A program made the translations under genes and the position numbers. The notes beneath the pieces were generated by a model. It saw only the letters and a program-made list of their open reading frames with translations, was not told the origin of the DNA and searched no databases. From Rhodothermus bifroesti (GTDB lineage: Bacteria > Bacteroidota > Rhodothermia > Rhodothermales > Rhodothermaceae), in the NCBI RefSeq assembly GCF_017908595.1, contig NZ_JAGKTL010000002.1, positions 558,001 to 622,000 of the forward strand: 64,000 nucleotides of DNA, read 5' to 3'. Of the stretch, positions 5,723 through 54,476 are shown piece by piece (within the stretch, counting starts at the first letter, position 1; every line of letters starts with the position of its first letter).

Positions 5723-5757
5723 AAACTCCCTATGGCTGTTATAGCCATAGGGAGTTT
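5723..5757. terminator. bidirectional intrinsic terminator, 15-bp perfect stem
   Basis: The arm 5723-5737 and its perfect reverse complement 5743-5757 flank a 5-base loop. The stem starts directly after the GH18 stop codon and lies 10 bases from the clpC stop. A-rich and T-rich bases border the stem, so it can terminate both convergent genes. Confidence 0.8.
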
Positions 5758-15036: not shown

Positions 15037-16278
15037 ATGAACCGTATGCTTTCTTTTGAATTGTTTGTCGCGCTACGCTACCTCCGGGGAGCACAGGGAC
15101 GGGAGGAAGGACGCCGCTTTTTACGGTTTATTACCTACGTCGCTGTAGGCGGCGTTGCTGTAGGGGTAGCGGCTTTGCTTCTAGCCTTGTCCATTGCGCA
15201 TGGTTTCAGTCAGGCCATCGAAGAAAAAATCACAGGCTTTGGCGCGCACGTCCAAGTCGAAAACCTACGGGATGCTCCGCTAAGCGATGCTGCTTGGATG
15301 GCCGCAGCGCTTACTCGTCTGCCCGGTGTGGTCTCCGTTAGACCCGTAGTGCAGGAATTCGTTCTGCTACGCTCCAGCGCGCGCGCCATTGATGGGGTAG
15401 CGCTTTGGGGTAGCCCATCGTTACCGGAATATCTAGAGCGCCATCTAATTGCTGGCAGCGCAACATTTACGCCCGACGCAGCAGGTCGCTACGGACTTGT
15501 ATTAGGACGCGCGTTGGCCGAACAGCTTGGCGTGCAGGTTGGTGATCTGGTAACTTTGTTTTCGCTGCGTCAGTTTTCTGGCTTACGGCCTATCCCTAGG
15601 CTACGCCAATTTTATGTAGCTGGCTTATACGAAACACTACTAACCGACTTTGACCGTCTTTATGTATTCACTTCTATAGAAGCTGCACGCCTGCTTCTGG
15701 CCTATGGCACTGATGAAGTTACCCGCTTTGACCTGACGCTTACTGACGTACGACAAGCCCGAAGCATTGCCGATGCTATCGAGACTGAATTTGGACTACC
15801 GGTTATTGCGCGCACGATCTATGAGGTTTTTCGCAACCTTTTTGCCTGGGTGCACTTGCAGGAAAGCATTATCCCTCTCGTAATCAGCATCATCGTGATT
15901 GTGGCTGCTTTTAACATGCTGGCCGTTCTACTCATGGTCATCCTAGAAAAAAGCCAAGAAATTGGCATTATGGCCAGCATGGGCGCTTCTGCCACAATGC
16001 TACAACGCCTCTTTTTATGCTTAGGAGTACTTATTGGCCTTAGCGGAACCCTCCTAGGCGAGGTGCTGGCTTTAAGCATAGCCGTTTTACAACAACATTT
16101 TGGCTTGATTCCACTTCCCGCGGAAGCCTACTACATGGCTACGGCTCCTGTAGCACCACGCGCATGGGATTTTCTAATGGTAGGGGTGCTAACGGTGCTT
16201 CTTTGCGGTTTGGCTGCGTATATTCCAGCACGAATCGCTGCCCGAATTGATCCCGTACGCGTGATTCGCTTTCGTTAA
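15037..16278 (+). CDS. LolC/LolE-like ABC transporter permease (FtsX family)
   Basis: About 413 residues. A first transmembrane helix lies at about residues 30-54 (VAVGGVAVGVAALLLALSI). A large periplasmic domain of the MacB-core type follows, then three C-terminal helices with the FtsX-like pattern (VISIIVIVAAFNMLAVLLMVI; GVLIGLSGTLLGEV; VGVLTVLLCGLAAYIPA). The order fits LolC/LolE, which pass lipoproteins toward the outer membrane with the ATPase LolD. No lolD gene lies alongside here. The start may be ATG 15037 (AGG 2 bases upstream) or ATG 15046. Confidence 0.85.
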   Translation: MNRMLSFELFVALRYLRGAQGREEGRRFLRFITYVAVGGVAVGVAALLLALSIAHGFSQAIEEKITGFGAHVQVENLRDAPLSDAAWMAAALTRLPGVVSVRPVVQEFVLLRSSARAIDGVALWGSPSLPEYLERHLIAGSATFTPDAAGRYGLVLGRALAEQLGVQVGDLVTLFSLRQFSGLRPIPRLRQFYVAGLYETLLTDFDRLYVFTSIEAARLLLAYGTDEVTRFDLTLTDVRQARSIADAIETEFGLPVIARTIYEVFRNLFAWVHLQESIIPLVISIIVIVAAFNMLAVLLMVILEKSQEIGIMASMGASATMLQRLFLCLGVLIGLSGTLLGEVLALSIAVLQQHFGLIPLPAEAYYMATAPVAPRAWDFLMVGVLTVLLCGLAAYIPARIAARIDPVRVIRFR

Positions 16279-16288
16279 CATCGGGCCT

Positions 16289-16549
16289 ATGCAAAAAGCT
16301 TTTCTACACCTTCGCGTTTACCTTTTTAGCGTACTTAAAGAGCGCTTAGGGCAAGATATGCTAGAAATTGCACTCCCAGCACCAGCTACGGGTGGGCATT
16401 TGCTGGATTACCTGACGTCTCGATTTCCGGAAGTTGCTGCTTACCGGTCTGTCATCCGCCTTGCCGTAAATCATACGTATGTCCCTGAGTCGACCTTCTT
16501 GGCTGAAGGCGACGAAATAGCTCTCATCACTCCTGTTAGTGGAGGTTAA
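16289..16549 (+). CDS. moaD: MoaD/ThiS family sulfur carrier (molybdopterin synthase small subunit)
   Basis: An 86-residue beta-grasp protein ending in Gly-Gly (TPVSGG), the C-terminus that is adenylated and thiocarboxylated for sulfur transfer into molybdopterin. It starts 10 bases after the permease gene. A moaE gene lies downstream beyond one inserted gene, which supports MoaD over ThiS. Confidence 0.87.
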   Translation: MQKAFLHLRVYLFSVLKERLGQDMLEIALPAPATGGHLLDYLTSRFPEVAAYRSVIRLAVNHTYVPESTFLAEGDEIALITPVSGG

Positions 16550-16557
16550 TCGCGCCT

Positions 16558-17577
16558 ATGGTTCGATTACTGCTTTTGGCCTTACTGGTACTCTTTAGTG
16601 CCTGCAACCAGCCGGCCAGTTCACCGACCTTACGTCGTGCAACAGCTTCCATAGAACGCATGGACGACCGGTTGGACGCGCTGCTGGATCCTCAGGTATT
16701 GGTTGAAGTCTTGGCCGAAGGGTTTCTTTGGGCAGAGGGTCCAGTCTGGGTAGCTCAAGATAGCGCGCTGCTTTTTTCCGATATTCCCCGGAATACCGTC
16801 TATCGCTGGAAAGAGCAGCACGGACTTGCGGTTTACCTTCGACCTGCCGGTTATGCTGCTGGCGACCAGCCTCCAGGACGCGAGCTTGGTGTTAATGGGC
16901 TAGCCTTAGATCCAAAAGGAACATTGGTTATGGCCGATCATGGCCTGCGGCAAATCAGCCGGCTCAACCCAGAGCAGTTCACCAAAACAGCATTGGCACA
17001 TCAGTATCAAGGTCGACGTCTTAACAGTCCCAATGATCTGGTCTTCCGCCATGACGGCGTGCTGTTTTTTACGGATCCGCCTTATGGTCTGGATGGATTA
17101 GACCATTCTCCACGGAAAGAATTGCCGTTCCATGGCGTTTACCGTTTAGATCCCAATGGTACTCTAACGCTACTAATCGACTCCTTGCACTTCCCTAACG
17201 GCATTGCCTTGTCGCCAGATGAACGCACTTTGTACGTTTCGCGTTCAGATCCGGAAGCGCCACGCTGGTACGCTTACCAGCTTGATGCAGCCGGAAACGT
17301 CATAAGCGGACGCATGTTATTTGATGCGCGGCCGCTTATGAAGGAAAACCGTCCTGGACTTCCCGATGGGATGGCCATCGATGCACAGGGAAATCTTTTT
17401 GCTACCGGACCAGGGGGCATTTTAATCCTAACGCCCAACGGTGAGCATCTGGGAACGATCCGCCTAGATCGGGCTGCAGCCAACTGTGCTTTTGGAGACG
17501 ACGGCCATAGCCTCTATATTACGGCTACCGATCAGCTTTTACGGATGCGCACGCGAACAAAGGGAAAAGGGTTTTAG
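16558..17577 (+). CDS. SMP-30/gluconolactonase-like lipoprotein
   Basis: 339 residues. A short hydrophobic leader with lipobox (LFSAC, Cys16) indicates a lipoprotein. The body is a six-bladed propeller of the SMP-30/gluconolactonase/LRE type. Repeats such as LAEGFLWAEGPVW, NSPNDLVFRHDG.LFFTDPPYGL, FPNGIALSPDERTLYVS and GLPDGMAIDAQGNLFATGPGG carry the metal-binding Glu, Asn and Asp positions. It is probably a sugar lactonase or related hydrolase outside the cytoplasm; the substrate is unknown. It sits between moaD and moaE, 8 bases after the first and abutting the second, although it has no known role in molybdopterin synthesis. Confidence 0.88.
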   Translation: MVRLLLLALLVLFSACNQPASSPTLRRATASIERMDDRLDALLDPQVLVEVLAEGFLWAEGPVWVAQDSALLFSDIPRNTVYRWKEQHGLAVYLRPAGYAAGDQPPGRELGVNGLALDPKGTLVMADHGLRQISRLNPEQFTKTALAHQYQGRRLNSPNDLVFRHDGVLFFTDPPYGLDGLDHSPRKELPFHGVYRLDPNGTLTLLIDSLHFPNGIALSPDERTLYVSRSDPEAPRWYAYQLDAAGNVISGRMLFDARPLMKENRPGLPDGMAIDAQGNLFATGPGGILILTPNGEHLGTIRLDRAAANCAFGDDGHSLYITATDQLLRMRTRTKGKGF

Positions 17578-18030
17578 ATGGAACGGTTAACTGAAACGAT
17601 TTGGATACGACTTTTAAGTGCTCCGCTCCCGGTTACTGATGCTGTGTCGTTTTTACAAACGCCTGAAGCAGGGGGATTGGCGCTGTTTTTAGGGACAACG
17701 CGGCGGTGGACCGAAGACCGGGAAACGCTTGCCCTGCACTACGAGGCCTATGAACCGATGGCTTTGGCTGAAATGGGGCGCTTGTCGGACGAAGCCTTTC
17801 GTCGTTGGCCAGTACGTCGGCTATGCCTTTGGCATCGACTAGGCGAAGTGCCTCCCGCCGAGATAAGCGTCCTTGTCGGCGTAGCTACGCCACACCGCGC
17901 AGAAGCTTTTGAGGCCTGCCGCTATCTTATTGATGCGCTAAAACGTCAAGTGCCGATTTGGAAACGTGAGACCCTCTCCAACGGCCATCAGGTTTGGGTT
18001 GAAGAGGGAATCCCAGAATCTAAGTCCTAG
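17578..18030 (+). CDS. moaE: molybdopterin synthase catalytic subunit
   Basis: A 150-residue MoaE that converts precursor Z (cPMP) to molybdopterin using MoaD-thiocarboxylate. Family features: GGLALFLGTTR near residue 32, LHYEAYEPMA near 57, HRLGEVPPAEISVLVGV near 86, and the catalytic lysine region LKRQVPIWKRE near 121. Its ATG follows the SMP-30 stop codon with no gap, suggesting translational coupling. Confidence 0.93.
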   Translation: MERLTETIWIRLLSAPLPVTDAVSFLQTPEAGGLALFLGTTRRWTEDRETLALHYEAYEPMALAEMGRLSDEAFRRWPVRRLCLWHRLGEVPPAEISVLVGVATPHRAEAFEACRYLIDALKRQVPIWKRETLSNGHQVWVEEGIPESKS

Positions 18031-18039
18031 AAGCCTCGT

Positions 18040-18846
18040 ATGCGCGTCGGCTTTGTGCAGTACTGCCCAGCCTTTTTGCAGATGGAAACCAATCGCCAAG
18101 TGCTTGCTGCACTTCTTGAAGGTATCGAGGCGGATTTGCTCGTGCTTCCTGAGCTGTGTCTTACTGGATACTTTTTTACTTCCTCTGAAGAGGCCCATGC
18201 CGCGGCAGAATCCATCCCCGACGGTCCTACAACCGCTTGGCTTACTACACTTAGCCAACGCACGGGGGCTATTCTGGTTGCTGGACTCCCAGAGCGCGAT
18301 GGGGCGCAGTACTACAACAGTGCCGTTGTGGTAGGCCCTAGAGGTTATATCGGCCATTATCGCAAGGTGCACCTCTTCTATGAGGAAAAACTTCACTTTC
18401 AGGCAGGTAATTTGGGCTTTCCGGTCTTTACCGTAACCGACCGCAGTGGAGAGACTTATAAATTAGGGGTTATGATCTGCTTTGACTGGTACTTTCCAGA
18501 AGCTGCGCGGACGTTGGCCTTACAAGGCGCGGATGTTATTGCCCATCCTGCCAACCTGGTCCGCCCGGATTGCCCGCGAGCGATGCCCATTCGTGCGCTT
18601 GAAAACCATGTTTTTACAATTACAGCCAATCGCTATGGTAGCGAATCTAACGGCAGAGAAACCCTGAGCTTCATTGGCCAAAGCCTTATTTGTGATCCCA
18701 TGGGCAGGATTTTAGCTCAGGCACCTAAGGTAGGCGACGCCGTAGAGGTGGTCGAGATTCATCCTGCCGAAGCCCGCAACCGGCGTATTACGCAGCACAA
18801 CGACTTGTTTGCTGACCGGCGCCCTGAACATTACCAGCTAAGCTGA
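18040..18846 (+). CDS. nitrilase-superfamily carbon-nitrogen hydrolase
   Basis: 268 residues. The Glu-Lys-Cys triad is visible in LPELCLTGYFF, YRKVHLF and ICFDWYFPE. This cytoplasmic family hydrolyses amides or nitriles. The short, single-domain form with this spacing resembles omega-amidases and carbamoylputrescine amidases, but the substrate cannot be decided. It starts 9 bases after moaE, so it ends the + strand run, and its 3' end overlaps the convergent purC gene by 16 bases. Confidence 0.9.
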   Translation: MRVGFVQYCPAFLQMETNRQVLAALLEGIEADLLVLPELCLTGYFFTSSEEAHAAAESIPDGPTTAWLTTLSQRTGAILVAGLPERDGAQYYNSAVVVGPRGYIGHYRKVHLFYEEKLHFQAGNLGFPVFTVTDRSGETYKLGVMICFDWYFPEAARTLALQGADVIAHPANLVRPDCPRAMPIRALENHVFTITANRYGSESNGRETLSFIGQSLICDPMGRILAQAPKVGDAVEVVEIHPAEARNRRITQHNDLFADRRPEHYQLS

Positions 18847-19811
18847 AGCCCTTCAAGTTGCTTGAGATTTTCTTCAATACGGGCTTCAGGGTCAGGATGG
18901 AGGTCGGGCACAAACGTTTCTCCTGTGAGCTCTTCGTAGAGCAAAATGTAGCGTTGTGCAATTTCAAGGCGAACCTCATCGGGAAGGTCTGGGAGCACCT
19001 GTCCTGGCTTTCCCATAAACCCTTGGGCCATCAGCCACTCCCGTACAAATTCTTTAGAAAGCTGCCGTTGCGGCAATCCTTTACGTAGCCGCTCTTCGTA
19101 TTCCTCTGCATAAAAGTAGCGGGAGGAGTCTGGCGTATGCACCTCATCGATAAGCCGTAGCGTTCCTTCCTCATCCACTCCAAACTCGTACTTGGTATCC
19201 ACCAGAATCAGGCCGCGGCGTGCGGCCATCTCTGTACCCCGCTGAAACAACTTCAGCGCCAATTGTTCGAGCTGGTCGAAGGTCTCTGCGTCTAACCAGC
19301 CGCGCGCCAGGATCTCCTCTCGACTGATGTCTTCGTCATGGCCTTCAGAGGCCTTGGTGGTTGGCGTTAGGATCGGCTGAGGGAGGCGTTCGTTTTGCAC
19401 CAGGCCTTCCGGCAAGCGCTTGCCGCAAAGTTGCCGGAGACCACTCTGATACAAACGCCAAGCATGGCCCGCCAAATAGCCGCGTACGACAAACTCAACA
19501 GGAATAGGCCGGCACCGACGGGCTACCGTTACGTTCGGGTCAGGTACAGCGACGACGTGGTTGGGGACCACGTCGGCTGTATGTCGGAAAAAATAGGCAG
19601 CCAACTGGTTGAGCACCTGCCCCTTAAAGGGTATGGTTTGCCGTAGCACATGATCGAAGGCCGAGATCCGGTCTGTAGTGATCAGTACCAGTAGGCCATC
19701 GATGGTGTACACGTCACGCACTTTACCCCGATAGGGCGGGCCCAAGGCCTTGAGGTGGGTCTGTCGCAGCGTACGTCCAAGCTGTGCTTTGAGCAGCGCG
19801 TTGTCGATCAT
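18831..19811 (-). CDS. purC: phosphoribosylaminoimidazole-succinocarboxamide synthase
   Basis: A 326-residue SAICAR synthase that joins aspartate to CAIR with ATP in purine synthesis. Recognised by the N-terminal PYRGKVRDVY, the TTDRISAFD motif, PVEFVVRGYLAGHAW, TKASEGHDEDIS and LVDTKYEFG. The length fits the long (yeast-like) form rather than the about 237-residue E. coli form. Its ATG overlaps the stop of the upstream lacI-type gene (ATGA), so both genes are co-transcribed and translationally coupled. Confidence 0.95.
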   Translation of the reverse strand: MIDNALLKAQLGRTLRQTHLKALGPPYRGKVRDVYTIDGLLVLITTDRISAFDHVLRQTIPFKGQVLNQLAAYFFRHTADVVPNHVVAVPDPNVTVARRCRPIPVEFVVRGYLAGHAWRLYQSGLRQLCGKRLPEGLVQNERLPQPILTPTTKASEGHDEDISREEILARGWLDAETFDQLEQLALKLFQRGTEMAARRGLILVDTKYEFGVDEEGTLRLIDEVHTPDSSRYFYAEEYEERLRKGLPQRQLSKEFVREWLMAQGFMGKPGQVLPDLPDEVRLEIAQRYILLYEELTGETFVPDLHPDPEARIEENLKQLEGLQLSW

Positions 19812-20854
19812 GTGCGTTGGCTGCAGTCGCTGGTGTAGCGGATTTTGAGTTGTGGAACAATCAAGACTTCCAGAGGGGGGTCTTGACGAATGCCTTCTAC
19901 GCGTTCAACCAGCAGCCGGGCAGATTCTTTGCCGACCGTGTGCATGTTCTGCGAAACGCTTGAAAGGCCGATGTACTCGCTAATTTTAATATCGTCGTAG
20001 CCTACCAAAGCTACGTCTTCGCCTACACGCAAACCGGCTTCACGCAGGGCTTTCCAAGCGCCGAGCGCTTGCACATCACTGCTGGCAAAGACGGCAGTAA
20101 CACGGGGCGTAATGGCCAGTAACTCCTGCATAGCCTCGTAGCCTGCTTCTTCACTAAAGCCCGCGTGTTTTTCGGTCTTACCTGCACGAACCAGTTCTGG
20201 TTCATAGGGAATACCAGCTGCTTCAAGGGCCTCACGGTAGCCTGCAATGCGATCAAGCTGCAGGCTCCCTTCGGTATGCGAACGAATCATGCCAATCCGG
20301 CGATGACCACAGGCAATAAGGTGCTGCACCGCAATTCGGGCACCGGTGCGGTCGTCCCAGTAAAAACAATCAAAGTCGGTATGATGATAGCCTACCATGA
20401 CCACAGGGGCATGCAAGGCGCGCAGCTCTAGCGTAAGCTTTTCATCGGCAGGTAGGCCGATCAGCAGCAAACCGTCGACAGCGCCGCGCCGCAGGAAGTT
20501 CAATAATTTCTGTTGTGGGTGTTTAGAGCCCAGGTCGCTGAGCAGCAGATCTGCATCGACGTTTTCTAAGGCAGTACGGACGCCTTTCAGGATTTCGTTA
20601 TGAAAGGGCGTGGTAAATGAGGTAACCGCAACGGCCAACACGCGGGTTTTCTTTTGCGCCAGCGTACGGGCCGTTCGGTCTGGGCGAAACTGCAGCTTCT
20701 CGATGGCACGCAGCACGCGCTGGCGCGTTTCGTCAGACACATCGCTGGAGTTGTTGAGTACGCGTGAGACGGTTGAGATTGCCACGCCGGCTTCGCGAGC
20801 CACGTCGTAGATAGTGACTTTGTCTTTTTTCTCTCGTCGAATGCGCTGGGCCAT
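19808..20854 (-). CDS. LacI/GalR family transcriptional regulator
   Basis: 348 residues. The N-terminal helix-turn-helix (VTIYDVAREAGVAISTVSRVLN, residues 13-34) and hinge helix (RTARTLAQKK) are followed by a periplasmic-binding-protein-like effector domain. The start has GGAGG 8 bases upstream. Because it overlaps purC, control of purine genes (as by PurR, also a LacI member) is one possibility. An operator-like site with the core GNAANCGNTTNC lies about 20 bases upstream, so autoregulation is likely. The effector is unknown. Confidence 0.92.
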   Translation of the reverse strand: MAQRIRREKKDKVTIYDVAREAGVAISTVSRVLNNSSDVSDETRQRVLRAIEKLQFRPDRTARTLAQKKTRVLAVAVTSFTTPFHNEILKGVRTALENVDADLLLSDLGSKHPQQKLLNFLRRGAVDGLLLIGLPADEKLTLELRALHAPVVMVGYHHTDFDCFYWDDRTGARIAVQHLIACGHRRIGMIRSHTEGSLQLDRIAGYREALEAAGIPYEPELVRAGKTEKHAGFSEEAGYEAMQELLAITPRVTAVFASSDVQALGAWKALREAGLRVGEDVALVGYDDIKISEYIGLSSVSQNMHTVGKESARLLVERVEGIRQDPPLEVLIVPQLKIRYTSDCSQRT

Positions 20855-20874
20855 AGCCGAAGCCTCCGATTGCC

Positions 20875-20886
20875 GTAAACGGTTGC
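20875..20886. promoter_or_regulatory. LacI-type operator-like site ahead of lacI-purC
   Basis: GTAAACGGTTGC matches the core GNAANCGNTTNC shared by LacI-family operators (PurR and CcpA types). It lies 20 bases upstream of the lacI start, a position suited to autorepression. Symmetry is imperfect at the inner and outer positions. Confidence 0.4.
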
Positions 20887-20977
20887 TAAGGTGATTCCCT
20901 AGATAGGCAATAAAAGTTCCCCAAAGTAGGGCTTAAGAAGTGTAAAAGATTTGGGGCATTTTTTTGTGAAAGATTGC

Positions 20978-21013
20978 TTTTATGTTTGATAAGTATTATT
21001 ATCAAACATAAAA
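20978..21013. other. dif: dif-like Xer recombination site (probable replication terminus)
   Basis: Perfect 15-base inverted arms (20978-20992 and 20999-21013) flank a 6-base centre GTATTA. The inner 28 bases have dif architecture: an 11-base arm ATGTTTGATAA ending in ATAA, the 6-base centre, then an 11-base arm TTATCAAACAT starting with TTAT. Known dif sites have the same ATAA-N6-TTAT layout. It lies 23 bases upstream of a tyrosine recombinase gene, and strand composition switches near here. The arms are identical, unlike the two different arms bound by XerC and XerD. A terminator is unlikely because no gene ends here. Confidence 0.65.
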
Positions 21014-21036
21014 AATAACCTACCTAACCTGTACAC

Positions 21037-21990
21037 ATGACCCGATCGCTTGAACCCTTACCAGCGCCACTACCCCAAACACCTTCCGGCAACGTGAATC
21101 TATTGGCGCTCTACCTAGAGCGTTTCGATCGCCCACATACGCGACGTGCTTATCGAAACGACCTGGTCGATTTCTTTGGTACGCCTCAGATCACGCTTGA
21201 GCTAGCCGCACGCACCACGTTCGTAGAGGTTAACCGCTACTTACAAGCCCTCGAGGCCCAAGGCCATAAGCCGGCCACGCTGCACCGACGGCTGGCCGCC
21301 TTACGGGGCTTTTTCGACTGGCTGGTCGCTCTGGGCGCCTTATCGCACAATCCCGCACACCGCCAGCTGGTACGCCGCCTGCGGCCGATTCATACAACCA
21401 GTCGCAGTGTCCTTTACCTGACAACTGACGAAGCTGCACGGCTCCTGGAAGCAGCTAGCCTAGATCCCCAAACCGGACTGCGTGATTATGCACTCATCCT
21501 AACATTGATCTTTTGCACGTTGCGTCGCAGCGAAGCCGCTGCTATGGATGTAGAGCATCTGCGACGCTTAGGCGCTTACTGGGTACTAGAGTTGCCGCAA
21601 ACCAAAGGTGGTGCACACCAGTTCGTCAAAGTGCCTGATGCCGTTATTGACGCCATTGAAACCATGAAAAGCCACTACGGCATTACGCAAGGACCGCTGT
21701 GGCGTAGTCTAAGCCGCCGTAACTATGGTCAACGTCTAACACCACATTCTATTTATCGCATCGTTGCACAAGCAGCCCTGCAGGCTGGCCTGCCACGTAT
21801 TGGCGCCCACACGCTACGGCACACAGGATGCACGTTAGCGCTAGAAGCTGGGGCTTCACTAGAACAGGTGCAGGCCCATGCCCGCCACCGGCATATTGCC
21901 ACAACGTTGCGCTATATCCATCAACGGGACCGACTGGCTTCAAGTGCTGCTGATTTTATCCGGATTGAATTGCCCACCCATAGACCATAG
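21037..21990 (+). CDS. Xer-type tyrosine recombinase
   Basis: 317 residues. The N-terminal SAM-like DNA-binding domain (about 22-105) is followed by the catalytic domain with the full set of residues: Arg in CTLRRSEAAAMD, Lys in QTKGGAHQFVKV, HTLRH, a following His in ARHRHIATTLRY, and the nucleophile Tyr in that same motif. The motif order is that of XerC/XerD/XerS rather than phage integrases with an arm-binding domain. Its position 23 bases from a dif-like palindrome suggests a single-recombinase system for chromosome dimer resolution. Whether a second Xer exists elsewhere is unknown, so no symbol is given. Confidence 0.9.
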   Translation: MTRSLEPLPAPLPQTPSGNVNLLALYLERFDRPHTRRAYRNDLVDFFGTPQITLELAARTTFVEVNRYLQALEAQGHKPATLHRRLAALRGFFDWLVALGALSHNPAHRQLVRRLRPIHTTSRSVLYLTTDEAARLLEAASLDPQTGLRDYALILTLIFCTLRRSEAAAMDVEHLRRLGAYWVLELPQTKGGAHQFVKVPDAVIDAIETMKSHYGITQGPLWRSLSRRNYGQRLTPHSIYRIVAQAALQAGLPRIGAHTLRHTGCTLALEAGASLEQVQAHARHRHIATTLRYIHQRDRLASSAADFIRIELPTHRP

Positions 21991-21991
21991 G

Positions 21992-22237
21992 CTAGGGTTG
22001 CCGTCGTGCCAAAATATGCGGCGGTGTTGGGTCTAAAGAACGGGGTCGCGGTCCACGATCTCCCTGAAAACGTGGTGAAGGCGGTACAGGCCGCCGCCAC
22101 GGATCTCCTCCCGAGGGCGGATCTTGCGACGAGCCAGAATCATTATTGTTTTTCCAGAAAAAACGCCACAGCAGTGTGCCCAAGACCATCGGCATTAGGG
22201 CCAGAAAAATCCCTATGGCCTGATATACCCATTCCAT
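21992..22237 (-). CDS. small hypothetical membrane protein
   Basis: About 81 residues from ATG 22237, which has a G-rich GGTGGGA 5 bases upstream. One transmembrane helix is visible (residues about 7-25, GIFLALMPMVLGTLLW), followed by a basic, Pro/Gly/Arg-rich tail (NNNDSGSSQDPPSGGDPWRRP). I do not recognise a family. The frame extends to 22333 with an AT-rich, less convincing N-terminus. It converges with the recombinase gene, with one base between the stops. Confidence 0.5.
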   Translation of the reverse strand: MEWVYQAIGIFLALMPMVLGTLLWRFFWKNNNDSGSSQDPPSGGDPWRRPVPPSPRFQGDRGPRPRSLDPTPPHILARRQP

Positions 22238-22355
22238 GGCATCCCACCAGCCAGTCCCATGCAATCGCTTCCAAACGTCTATGCTTTTTAAGTAATTATA
22301 AAAAATATGCACCGGAATGCAAGTCAATTCCAAAGAAAAAAATCCCCTAAGGACT

Positions 22356-23279
22356 ATGCCTGTGGTGCACGAGCTGGTTCAAACCCTTGCCTGTTGGCAG
22401 GCAGAACATGCAGCGGAAGGCACGTTTTTGATTCTGGCGGGACCCACCGCCGTGGGTAAAACCGCCCTTAGCTTGGCGTTGGCTGAAACGCTTGGGGCCG
22501 AAATTATCTCTGCCGACAGCCGGCAGGTTTACCGCCAGCTGAACATCGGCACAGCCAAGCCAGACCCAGAGGCACTAGCCCGCGTGCCACACCACTTTAT
22601 TAACGAGCGCGATTTAGGCGAGCCGTTTTCTGCAGGGCACTTTGCCTTTGAAGCTTGGGCCCGCATGGCTGCAATCCTTGAACGGGGACGCATTCCCTTG
22701 GTTGTAGGGGGCTCAACCCTGTATCTTGAAGCCTTACAGTTTGGATTGGCTGAAATTCCCGATATAGACCCATCCGTACGTCAGTGGCTTCAAGAGCGGC
22801 TTGCCCGGGAAGGGCCTGAACGGCTTTATCGTGAGCTGGTTCAGGTCGATCCACAAGCAGCGCAGCGGCTGGATCCCTCCAAAACGCAGCGGGTGCTACG
22901 GGCCTTAGAAGTGTACCACGGCACAGGCCGTCCTATTACAGCCTATTATCAAAACCACCGACGCCCGCCGTACGCTTTTCGGACAATTGTGCTCTACCGC
23001 GAACGATCTGTGCTTTACGAGCGCATTAACCGTCGGGTGGATGCCATGCTTGAAGCTGGCCTGGTCCAAGAAGTGGAGTCCCTGCTTCAGGCTGGGTATG
23101 ATCCCACGCTAGAAGCGCTACGCACGATTGGCTATGCGGAAGTGATACCCTATCTCAAAGGAGTCTATCCATATGCAACCATGCGTGCGCTGATTCAGCG
23201 CAATACGCGACGTTATGCTAAGCGCCAGCTTGCTTGGTTTCGGCGTTTTTCGTTTGAGTGGATCTTGCTTGAAGATTAG
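22356..23279 (+). CDS. miaA: tRNA dimethylallyltransferase
   Basis: About 307 residues. It transfers dimethylallyl to A37 of tRNAs reading UNN codons. The P-loop GPTAVGKTAL is followed by the family signatures ISADSRQVYR, NIGTAKP and VVGGSTLYLEAL, and by YAKRQLAWFRR near the C-terminus. I chose ATG 22356, after AAGGA. An ATG at 22317 would add 13 residues without family similarity. The 3' end overlaps the convergent RsbW-like gene by 4 bases. Confidence 0.95.
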   Translation: MPVVHELVQTLACWQAEHAAEGTFLILAGPTAVGKTALSLALAETLGAEIISADSRQVYRQLNIGTAKPDPEALARVPHHFINERDLGEPFSAGHFAFEAWARMAAILERGRIPLVVGGSTLYLEALQFGLAEIPDIDPSVRQWLQERLAREGPERLYRELVQVDPQAAQRLDPSKTQRVLRALEVYHGTGRPITAYYQNHRRPPYAFRTIVLYRERSVLYERINRRVDAMLEAGLVQEVESLLQAGYDPTLEALRTIGYAEVIPYLKGVYPYATMRALIQRNTRRYAKRQLAWFRRFSFEWILLED

Positions 23280-23686
23280 CCCGTGCGCCAAAATCGCATG
23301 CGCACGCGCCGACCGCTGGCTTCATAGATAACTTGATCTGCCAACTTTTCCATTAGAAAAAGGCCCCGCCCTCCGGGTTGAAGAAGCATTTCTTTATCCT
23401 CTGGATTATAGGAGGGTACGCGCGATCGGTCAAACCCATCCCCTTCGTCTTCTACGCAAAGTTCAAGCACATGAGGATCTAAAGCATCTAGTACAATATG
23501 AACTTGCTTTGTGGGATCCATACGGTTCCCGTGACGCATTGCATTGGTGATAGCTTCGCTGGCTGCCAGTACCAAGCGGTTCACCAAAGCGGCGTCGTTT
23601 GTCCATCGATAGGCGGCCTGCTCTAGCGTTTCCAGTATGCAGGCCATTGCCTTTAAATCACTCGGAATGTGCCACTGAAGCTGCAT
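23276..23686 (-). CDS. RsbW-like anti-sigma factor / serine kinase (HATPase)
   Basis: A 136-residue GHKL ATPase domain with N-box EAITNAMRHGN, G1 box VEDEGDGFD and G2 box GGRGLFLM, and no histidine-kinase domain. This is the form of anti-sigma factors and switch kinases such as RsbW and SpoIIAB. No anti-anti-sigma factor or sigma factor lies next to it. Its 5' end overlaps the end of the glycosyltransferase gene by 29 bases. Confidence 0.87.
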   Translation of the reverse strand: MQLQWHIPSDLKAMACILETLEQAAYRWTNDAALVNRLVLAASEAITNAMRHGNRMDPTKQVHIVLDALDPHVLELCVEDEGDGFDRSRVPSYNPEDKEMLLQPGGRGLFLMEKLADQVIYEASGRRVRMRFWRTG

Positions 23687-24977
23687 GGCGCGTTGCGTTG
23701 CGCTGGCATACCATTGTCAATACCTCAGCCAGTTGGCCAGCCAGCAGACGCCGATCGTAGCGGCGAACCACTTCGGCTTTGCCTTGAGGCAGGCGTTGGG
23801 TCTTCCAGTCAGCATAGATGCGCGCGAGTGCCTGCGCAATTGCCGACACGTCGTGTGGGGAGGTTAGGTAGGCCGCCCCGTAGGCTTCAAGAACTGTTCG
23901 CGCCTCGCCCTCTGGTACCAAAGCTAAAATGGGTTTTCGGGTACCGATATACTCAAACAGTTTGCTAGTCGAAATGCTGGCAGCCCCGGGCTGCTCCCCT
24001 ACCGTCATCCAAAGCACATCGGCTGTTTTGAGGGCTGCGATGGTTTCTGGGTGCGAACGGTATCCTTCTAGCCGTACAACGTCACCTAAGCCGAGCTGCG
24101 TAATGCACTGCGGCACATGGGGAGGAAACAGACCAACAAAAATGGCTTCAACATGCCTGCGCGCTTCGGGCTGATGGTGTAGCCATTGGGCTAGTCCCCG
24201 AAGAAAGTCGTCCGGCTGCTGTGCATCGTAAAAGACCCCCGCATAGAGCAGCCGTAAGCGCTCCTTGCTGTTGGATGAGGAGGCGGGGTGGTTTTCAAAA
24301 TCTTCCGGGTCAAAGCCATGTGGAATAACAATAGGCGTACGTTTACCTCTGGGAAGCCGTGCGCCAAGCTGCTGGGCAAGGGTTGCATTGATGGTGATAA
24401 CGCAGCTAGCTCGGTGCAGGACGTAGCGTTCCAGCTTAGCGTGAAGTCGTCGATGCCAGCCCGTAGGGAAGAACTGGCGTGGATTGCCTAGCCAGTCGTC
24501 TCGGTAGTCCACCACAAGCGGTAGATGGCTTTTCTGTTGTAAACGTGCCCCAATGAGCAAGGCTGTAGGCGGAGGGCTAGAAGCAAAAATAGCGTCAAAC
24601 GGACGCATCCGAAGGAGCTTCTCACCAGCTCGTAGCGCTGGCAGGAGCCAGCCAATTTTGTTGTCGGGTACAAACAGCCAACCACTCAAGCGCATCCAAT
24701 AGCGGCGTAGCACCTCGGAGGGCATCTCGAGCCGTGTAGGACGTCGGGCAAGCAAGCGTAGCGGATCTAGCGAAGAGGTACGCACGATTTCTACACCGGC
24801 CGTTTCGACCTCGTGTAGCAGCGCCTCATCGTAGGCAAAGTATTTCCCAGGCCAAACTGTTAAAACCGTAGGCTGCCAACCGTAGTGCGGTAGGTATTTG
24901 ACAAATTTGGCAACGCGCTGCACGCCGCTAAGCCCCATAGGTGGAAAATAGTAGGCAATGACAAGCACCCGAGGCAT
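23658..24977 (-). CDS. glycosyltransferase, GT4-like
   Basis: 439 residues with two Rossmann-like halves of the GT-B fold. The N-terminus VLVIAYYFPPMGLSGVQR is typical of GT4 enzymes of surface polysaccharide synthesis. The C-terminal half has LLYAGVFYDAQQPDDFLRGL and STSKLFEYIGTRKPILALVPEGE, the sugar-nucleotide binding region. Donor and acceptor are unknown. It lies between an RsbW-like gene and an M24 peptidase, not in a larger glycan cluster, though an epimerase gene lies about 5 kb away. Confidence 0.87.
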   Translation of the reverse strand: MPRVLVIAYYFPPMGLSGVQRVAKFVKYLPHYGWQPTVLTVWPGKYFAYDEALLHEVETAGVEIVRTSSLDPLRLLARRPTRLEMPSEVLRRYWMRLSGWLFVPDNKIGWLLPALRAGEKLLRMRPFDAIFASSPPPTALLIGARLQQKSHLPLVVDYRDDWLGNPRQFFPTGWHRRLHAKLERYVLHRASCVITINATLAQQLGARLPRGKRTPIVIPHGFDPEDFENHPASSSNSKERLRLLYAGVFYDAQQPDDFLRGLAQWLHHQPEARRHVEAIFVGLFPPHVPQCITQLGLGDVVRLEGYRSHPETIAALKTADVLWMTVGEQPGAASISTSKLFEYIGTRKPILALVPEGEARTVLEAYGAAYLTSPHDVSAIAQALARIYADWKTQRLPQGKAEVVRRYDRRLLAGQLAEVLTMVCQRNATRHAASVAHSE

Positions 24978-24979
24978 GG

Positions 24980-26049
24980 TTACAGCACATAGAGGGTTTT
25001 AGGAACATGTGTGAGGTTCAGGTAGCCTTCTGGTGTAAGCACGATAAGATCCTCAAGGCGCACGCCAAAACGTTCTGGAAGATAAACGCCAGGCTCGATT
25101 GTAATTACGACACCAGAAGGGAGTGCGGCTTCATTTTGTGCAGCAATGCGCGGCCATTCGTGTACCTCTAGGCCTACGCCGTGCCCAAGGCTATGCGTAA
25201 AATACTTCTCCAAGCCAGCGGCTTTAAGCGCAGCCCGGGCAGCTTGGTCTAGTTCAGCCGCCGAAATGCCTGCACGAGCCTTCGCTAACGCAGCTTCTTG
25301 GGCCGCAGCAACGCACTGGTAGACGTGCGCAACCTCATCTTGCACAGGACCTAAAACGACCGTACGCGTCATGTCGGAGGCATAGCCATCGACATAGCAG
25401 CCAAAGTCCAGCACAACAACATCTCCTCGGCGTAAGCGTCGCTTTGTTGGCCGGGCATGCGGAAGAGCACTGTTGGGTCCAGAGGCAACAATAGGCTCGA
25501 AAGCCATGCGTTCAGCACCACGGCGCAAGTGCCGATAGACGATCTCCGCGGCCAGCTCTTGCTCCGAAATGCCAGGGGTGATGAGTGCGAGTACTTCCTC
25601 AAATACAGTTTCTGAGATTGCTTGGGCTTGTCGGATGGCTTTTAGTGCTGCAGCATCTTTAACGGCCTTGAGTTCATTAAGCCATCCAGAGCGTGGGATC
25701 CAGGCCACATGCGGTAGTTTCTCTTGGAAGCTTTGCAGTGCGGCAAAGCTTAGATGGTCGGCTTGAAAAATCACCCGGTGCACGTTGTCAAACAGCCCAG
25801 TGGCTGTAGCATGCCCGATCAGATCGGGGCCTGAGATGTGGCAATGTGCCCCTTGGACCTCAGCATGGGCTTGGGTTGCGTAGCGACCATCAGTAAGAAA
25901 ATGAGCATCTTGAAGACGTACAAGGAGCATTCCATTAGAACCAGTAAATCCGCATGCCCAGCGGATATCAGGCAGGTGGGAAAGAAGCACAGCGTCTCCC
26001 CCTTCAAAGGCCAGACGGGCTTGTAGCGAGGCGATGCGAGCGTGGTACA

Positions 26050-26050
<1 letters not shown>
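24980..26050 (-). CDS. Xaa-Pro peptidase, M24 family
   Basis: 356 residues. An N-terminal creatinase-like domain is followed by a pita-bread M24B domain with the five metal ligands: Asp in VVLDFG, Asp in ASDMTRT, His in GHGVGLEVHE, Glu in TIEPGVY and Glu in VRLEDL. It cleaves X-Pro bonds in the cytoplasm; aminopeptidase P and prolidase cannot be told apart here. The ATG at 26050 overlaps the guaB stop (TGATG), indicating coupling. Confidence 0.92.
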
Positions 26051-28342
<2,292 letters not shown>

Positions 28343-54446: not shown

Positions 54447-54476
54447 TTGGGGCTTTCGCCTAGGCGAAAGCCCCAA
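54447..54476 (-). terminator. intrinsic terminator after trpB2, 15-bp perfect stem
   Basis: TTGGGGCTTTCGCC and its complement meet at a central TA (a perfect 30-base palindrome). On the - strand the stem is followed by CTTTTTTC. It lies 17 bases after the trpB2 stop and insulates it from the large secreted-protein gene. Confidence 0.88.

Follow-up and report, generated by a model that had tools for sequence, protein, structure and literature searches.

A putative dif site with perfectly symmetric arms beside the only catalytically complete Xer recombinase gene of Rhodothermus bifroesti

An Xer-type tyrosine recombinase of 317 amino acids, termed type A here, is encoded on the forward strand at 21037-21990 of the analysed window, a 64,000-nucleotide stretch of the Rhodothermus bifroesti genome. 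Its divergent neighbour is a LacI-family regulator (19808-20854, reverse strand) located beside a purC-like gene, and miaA lies downstream (22317-23279, forward strand). Between the two divergent genes we found a perfect palindrome at 20978-21013, TTTTATGTTTGATAA-GTATTA-TTATCAAACATAAAA, with 15-nt arms that are 100% complementary around a 6-nt centre, and with a gap of 23 bases to the xer ATG (21037). Its 28-bp core, ATGTTTGATAA-GTATTA-TTATCAAACAT (20982-21009), is dif-like. On the forward strand it consists of a left 11-bp half-site with the inner motif GATAA (20982-20992), a 6-bp central region (20993-20998), which is the sole asymmetric part, and a right 11-bp half-site (20999-21009). A sequence-only reading of this DNA had described the 15-base inverted arms with their 6-base centre, the inner 28-base dif layout with ATAA and TTAT ending its 11-base arms around N6, and the 23 bases separating the palindrome from a complete Xer-type recombinase. 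All of these were confirmed, the ORF having six catalytic positions.

The GC content of the 36-mer is 14%, compared with 54% in the window. Across 20 first-order Markov simulations of the window, the longest palindrome arm with a spacer of 6 was 9. GC-rich, terminator-like palindromes with comparable arm length are present elsewhere in the genome, so arm length by itself is not unique; what sets this one apart is an AT-rich core, ATAA-N6-TTAT, located between divergent genes. A search of the 2.88-Mb genome that tolerated three mismatches gave a single copy of the 28-bp site (the reversed control had no matches), which disposes of the possibility of many copies raised in the earlier reading. 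The palindrome was also considered as a terminator, and this was rejected given its AT-rich arms, its location between divergent genes and a scan that gave no terminator at the site. No sigma-70 promoter was found around the palindrome by scan. Other near-perfect palindromes in the window, at 5723-5757 (AAACTCCCTATGGCT-N5-AGCCATAGGGAGTTT) and at 54447-54476 (TTGGGGCTTTCGCCTAGGCGAAAGCCCCAA), are probably transcription terminators.

The type A protein possesses an N-terminal SAM-like domain (Phage_int_SAM_1) and a catalytic Phage_integrase domain. When aligned to XerD (1a0p) and to its relatives, it retains all six catalytic positions (R163, K190, H258, R261, H284 and Y293), the R-K-H-R-H-Y set of the tyrosine recombinase superfamily (Phage_integrase). 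Two Phage_integrase (PF00589) proteins were detected in the genome, which is 98.7% complete: type A, and a paralogue on contig C3 that we term type B (L002:1120-2079; see also L028-L033). Genomes G001, G002, G029 and G038 also have two such proteins apiece. Aligned to XerD (1a0p), type B has Ser and Thr at both catalytic Arg positions, has the motifs GLSEVE and HSLTH, and is unchanged at the Lys, His and Tyr positions. It was found in nearly every Rhodothermales genome examined. The members of the order that were read share the identical Arg replacements, and type B is thus an old, conserved and presumably non-catalytic paralogue. The earlier claim of a single Xer gene therefore stands for catalytically complete chromosomal Xer proteins, of which this genome has exactly one, and fails in so far as a second Xer-like protein exists on contig C3, without both catalytic arginines. 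A separate XerC/XerD pair, which that reading had named as a possible objection, was absent among the Phage_integrase proteins of the genome, as was any second intact Xer.

Type B could instead be the second, non-catalytic partner of a two-recombinase system acting at dif. Its near ubiquity in Rhodothermales and its retained Lys, His and Tyr positions would suit such a role. However, it has lost both catalytic arginines, the half-sites in the window are identical, as expected for one protein, and it is present alike in genomes with type A and in those with another recombinase, type C, described below. Type B thus does not track the site, and we consider its participation improbable.

The window includes the zone in which GC skew switches from positive on the left to negative on the right (16001-28000), a cumulative-skew maximum marking the replication terminus. 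All 16 stretches of contig C2 to the left of the site had positive skew and all seven to its right had negative skew. The sequence-only reading had expected the terminus at a skew minimum, and this expectation was wrong. In relatives, where skew was sampled in 20-kb stretches covering 8-15% of each genome, the switch was found at the site in Roseithermus sacchariphilus (G012) and near it in one complete genome (G029). In R. marinus AA3-38 (G001) xer maps to 1604 kb and the site to 1678.6 kb. Skew remains positive over the interval and is negative from the site on, so that the site, 75 kb from xer, marks the terminus rather than the gene. The locus thus presents a unique palindromic site, within the range of about 28-31 bp, at a GC-skew switch. 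Since the change of skew coincides with the site here, in R. marinus AA3-38, in Roseithermus and in another complete genome, the proposal that the palindrome is the chromosomal dif receives strong support, and recombination would be expected to take place there.

Of 114 Rhodothermales genomes, in part fragmented draft MAGs, 62 have a type A orthologue; a sample of 394 genomes from across the phylum gave none outside the order. A GATAA-N6-TTATC sequence is conserved upstream of the orthologues, generally at 30-900 bp, though the inner ATAA and TTAT letters were a search requirement. The G and C next to them hardly vary; the outer arms and the centre differ between species. Conservation of the palindrome in relatives, on which the sequence-only reading had made its case depend, thus holds across the order for this core and not for the outer arms. 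When types A and C were pooled and loci with enough flank were considered, a palindromic ATAA-N6-TTAT site was found within 1 kb upstream of 43 out of 73 Xer loci and within 1 kb downstream of 2 out of 75. A stricter site pattern matched in 39 of the 114 genomes, mostly once each, and the reversed control gave fewer, scattered matches. The RKHRHY active site is intact in 50 of 63 type A rows. The 13 broken ones are all beside another recombinase gene, which is of type C in 11 cases and unrelated in two (G074 and G075). Extra type A-like recombinases with no palindromic site nearby were found at L261 (G111) and L263 (G060), with more in G112 and G113, and are possibly carried by mobile elements. 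A viral contig (L266:5001-5870) encodes a relative with 39% identity to the window Xer, with no matching palindrome nearby.

Most genomes without type A have type C, which was recovered from 42 of the 114 Rhodothermales genomes and formed its own clade on a long branch apart from type A. Its palindrome is typically AACATAA-N6-TTATGTT, just upstream of the gene and often at 16-90 bp, and no searched genome has more than one exact copy. For type C, one complete genome was sampled (G051), and its site was found at 3136 kb, near the skew switch. The letter flanking ATAA followed the recombinase type: GATAA (G...C) accompanied type A in 24 cases and CATAA (C...G) accompanied type C in 18, with no exchanges, and one weak type A site read C...T. 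Because the rows are related and the split between the types is one deep event, the Fisher test (p = 3e-12) describes a strong association and is not an independent test.

These distributions also bear on a rival reading in which the palindrome, instead of a recombination site, would be an operator through which the recombinase regulates its own gene or the divergent LacI-family protein acts. The location between divergent promoters does suit an operator, as does the distance of 16-70 bp from the start codon seen for many sites of types A and C. Against this, the motif remains at the terminus of R. marinus AA3-38, at the skew flip, with the gene 75 kb away, and it is 17-32 kb from the gene in several type C genomes. 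Its 11+6+11 dif layout is preserved, its form follows the Xer type, and a genome has about one copy. We regard an operator as very unlikely. The narrower candidate of a LacI operator was rejected in view of the conservation of the motif and its displacement from the gene.

The flanks of the locus are syntenic with Roseithermus on both sides (purC and lacI on the left, both of them just left of the site there too; miaA, a glycosyltransferase, a peptidase and IMPDH on the right) and with Rhodothermus on the right, and miaA adjoins xer in both. An integrase with its att site, belonging to an integrated mobile element or to an IMEX remnant, is the least credible reading and has hardly any probability left: a tyrosine recombinase beside a palindrome, the site-less extra type A copies in a few genomes and the homologue on the viral contig would fit it, but the single copy of the site means that there is no attL/attR pair, the flanks are syntenic, and type A is a single group throughout the order, with none outside in the 394 genomes sampled over the phylum.

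The window Xer is only 45% identical to that of Rhodothermus, compared with 72% for miaA and about 90% for IMPDH, and the Rhodothermus Xer clustered outside the main type A clade. This low identity beside conserved flanks, together with the separate branch, suggests that the Rhodothermus xer was probably replaced or evolved fast, and the window genome probably retains an arrangement common to other families. In congeneric Rhodothermus species the site is 5-75 kb from xer, and no convincing site was found in G003 and G006; adjacency is thus not obligatory.

Candidate sites were found on both replicons of R. marinus DSM 4252, AGTTGCGATAA-CTCCCA-TTATCATAAGT on the chromosome (L191:18769-18796) and AGTTGCGATAA-ATCCAC-TTATCATAAGT on plasmid pRMAR01 (NC_013502.1; L189:14636-14663). 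The 11-bp arms are identical and the 6-bp centres differ, as would be expected if one enzyme resolves both replicons without fusing them, and the pair fits a role for the centre. The plasmid-free R. marinus AA3-38 (L187 and L129) has a plasmid-type site and pRMAR01-like DNA (compare L189 and L190) at its chromosomal terminus, which suggests a past exchange or fusion between chromosome and plasmid near dif.

The palindrome is very probably the chromosome dimer-resolution site (dif) of this bacterium, and the adjacent gene its only catalytically complete Xer. The observations behind this are the site itself, its symmetry, its uniqueness, its position at the skew switch, the intact active site, the lack of another intact Xer, the conserved linkage and the tracking of the half-site with the recombinase type. 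From these sequence features we would predict binding and cleavage of the site, recombination, control by or dependence on FtsK, and the corresponding role of enzyme and site in the cell. Tyrosine recombinases bind one monomer per half-site, and two sites synapse and undergo two sequential strand exchanges, which are set apart by the 6-bp centre. Here, each of the two identical half-sites would be occupied by a copy of the single Xer, and the two sites of a dimeric chromosome would then synapse. Strand exchange by the enzyme across GTATTA, the 6-bp centre, would turn the dimer back into two monomers. One protein is enough when the half-sites are identical, and the two ends of the site can be told apart by GTATTA alone. 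Orientation must therefore come from the asymmetric centre, from FtsK or from both, and we infer that the centre sets the orientation of the site and the homology for strand exchange. The genome encodes an FtsK with a gamma domain, which makes FtsK control plausible. A search for KOPS (strand-biased 8-mers) gave generic G-rich words and high-copy repeats, with no clear FtsK-orienting motif. The k-mer skew also revealed, in samples L157-L176 of contig C2, a repeat made of words like ATAATCGCACCTTTGTGGTATTGAAAT, with about 80 copies, nearly all in one orientation, which is probably a CRISPR array.

To our knowledge, dif systems with a single recombinase have been described in few groups, namely XerS, XerH, XerA and XerL. 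In XerS/difSL of streptococci and lactococci, the gene of the single recombinase is directly beside the site, at the terminus (PMC5357621, PMC2731167), and the system in the window is similar in all three respects. The 31 bp of difSL comprise an 11-bp centre between unequal arms (PMC5357621), in contrast to the 11+6+11 layout and identical arms of the window site. The protein scored 39 bits against the XerS model (cut-off 267), and it thus has neither the XerS equivalog match nor the 31-bp site. XerH/difH of Helicobacter and Campylobacter is likewise a single recombinase, often genetically linked to its site, which lies near the skew peak (PMC2731167). The hosts of XerH belong to another bacterial phylum, and the match of the window Xer to XerH (5jjv; E = 7e-4, 22 bits) does not indicate a close relation. 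In Archaea, XerA works alone on a terminus-located dif of 28 bp (PMC2958812, PMC5357621), a description that would also suit the window system; XerA is reported to be FtsK-independent (PMC5357621), unlike the present case in which FtsK gamma is encoded, and the score against the XerA model was 89 bits (cut-off 220), below equivalog level. XerL of Legionellales is a single recombinase with a palindromic site near the cumulative GC-skew maximum; the plasmid site adjoins xerL in Coxiella, and the dif of Legionella has varying gene neighbourhoods (PMC9765430). The window site resembles it in being palindromic and at the skew maximum, XerL having been compared by its published description.

The site shares with XerCD/dif of the E. 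coli type its 28-bp length, the 11+6+11 layout, the inner ATAA...TTAT and the presence of FtsK with a gamma domain. It differs in that the gene adjoins the site, and in that two recombinases on unlike half-sites were not found, since the genome has no second catalytic Xer and the arms are identical. Scores against the XerC and XerD models were 110.8 bits (cut-off 335) and 102 bits (cut-off 330), both below equivalog level. Kono et al. used XerCD-type profiles to predict dif in 19 Bacteroidetes; the main text names neither Salinibacter nor Rhodothermus (PMC3025954). We found no description of a dif site or Xer system of Rhodothermus or Salinibacter in the open-licence literature. Judged by these comparisons, the window system is best classified as a new Xer/dif lineage of the single-recombinase kind.

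Among the 77 good-quality genomes, type A was present in 46, type C in 34 and both in 10, and at least one type in 70. Both types were matched in 13 genomes, with the genes adjacent in 12. The catalytic residues of type A are usually lost in these two-gene genomes (for example RGDRFV in the Salinibacter-type G018). There were two exceptions with type A intact despite type C, G057 and G086, the genes being on separate contigs in G086. In G082 the A and C genes each have their own site 15-16 bp upstream. No hybrid sites combining a GATAA half with a CATAA half were found in the two-gene genomes. At the Salinibacter-type loci L215, L216, L217 and L232-L236, a type A gene lacking catalytic residues adjoins an intact type C gene, and GATAA-type sites are often kept upstream, in some cases as a tandem pair with a distance of 34 bp.

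The simplest reading of the two-gene genomes is that one gene-plus-site cassette may have been replaced by another at the terminus, with the old enzyme decaying, and we infer that the direction was from A to C. We lean towards the wider view that dimer resolution in Rhodothermales is an exchangeable cassette: types A and C, each with its own upstream palindromic dif and half-site code (GATAA or CATAA), would replace one another at the terminus, and a type A that has lost its active site, its site often persisting, would be a decaying relic or a DNA-binding partner.

The alternation of A and C, with its tandem intermediates, would illustrate concretely how one important system of chromosome maintenance may give way to another, gene and site moving as a unit, and the G or C beside ATAA offers a ready test of half-site specificity. 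As a further single-recombinase lineage with a perfectly symmetric site, the system would also make directly testable where a symmetric dif obtains its direction, whether from the centre, from FtsK or from neither.
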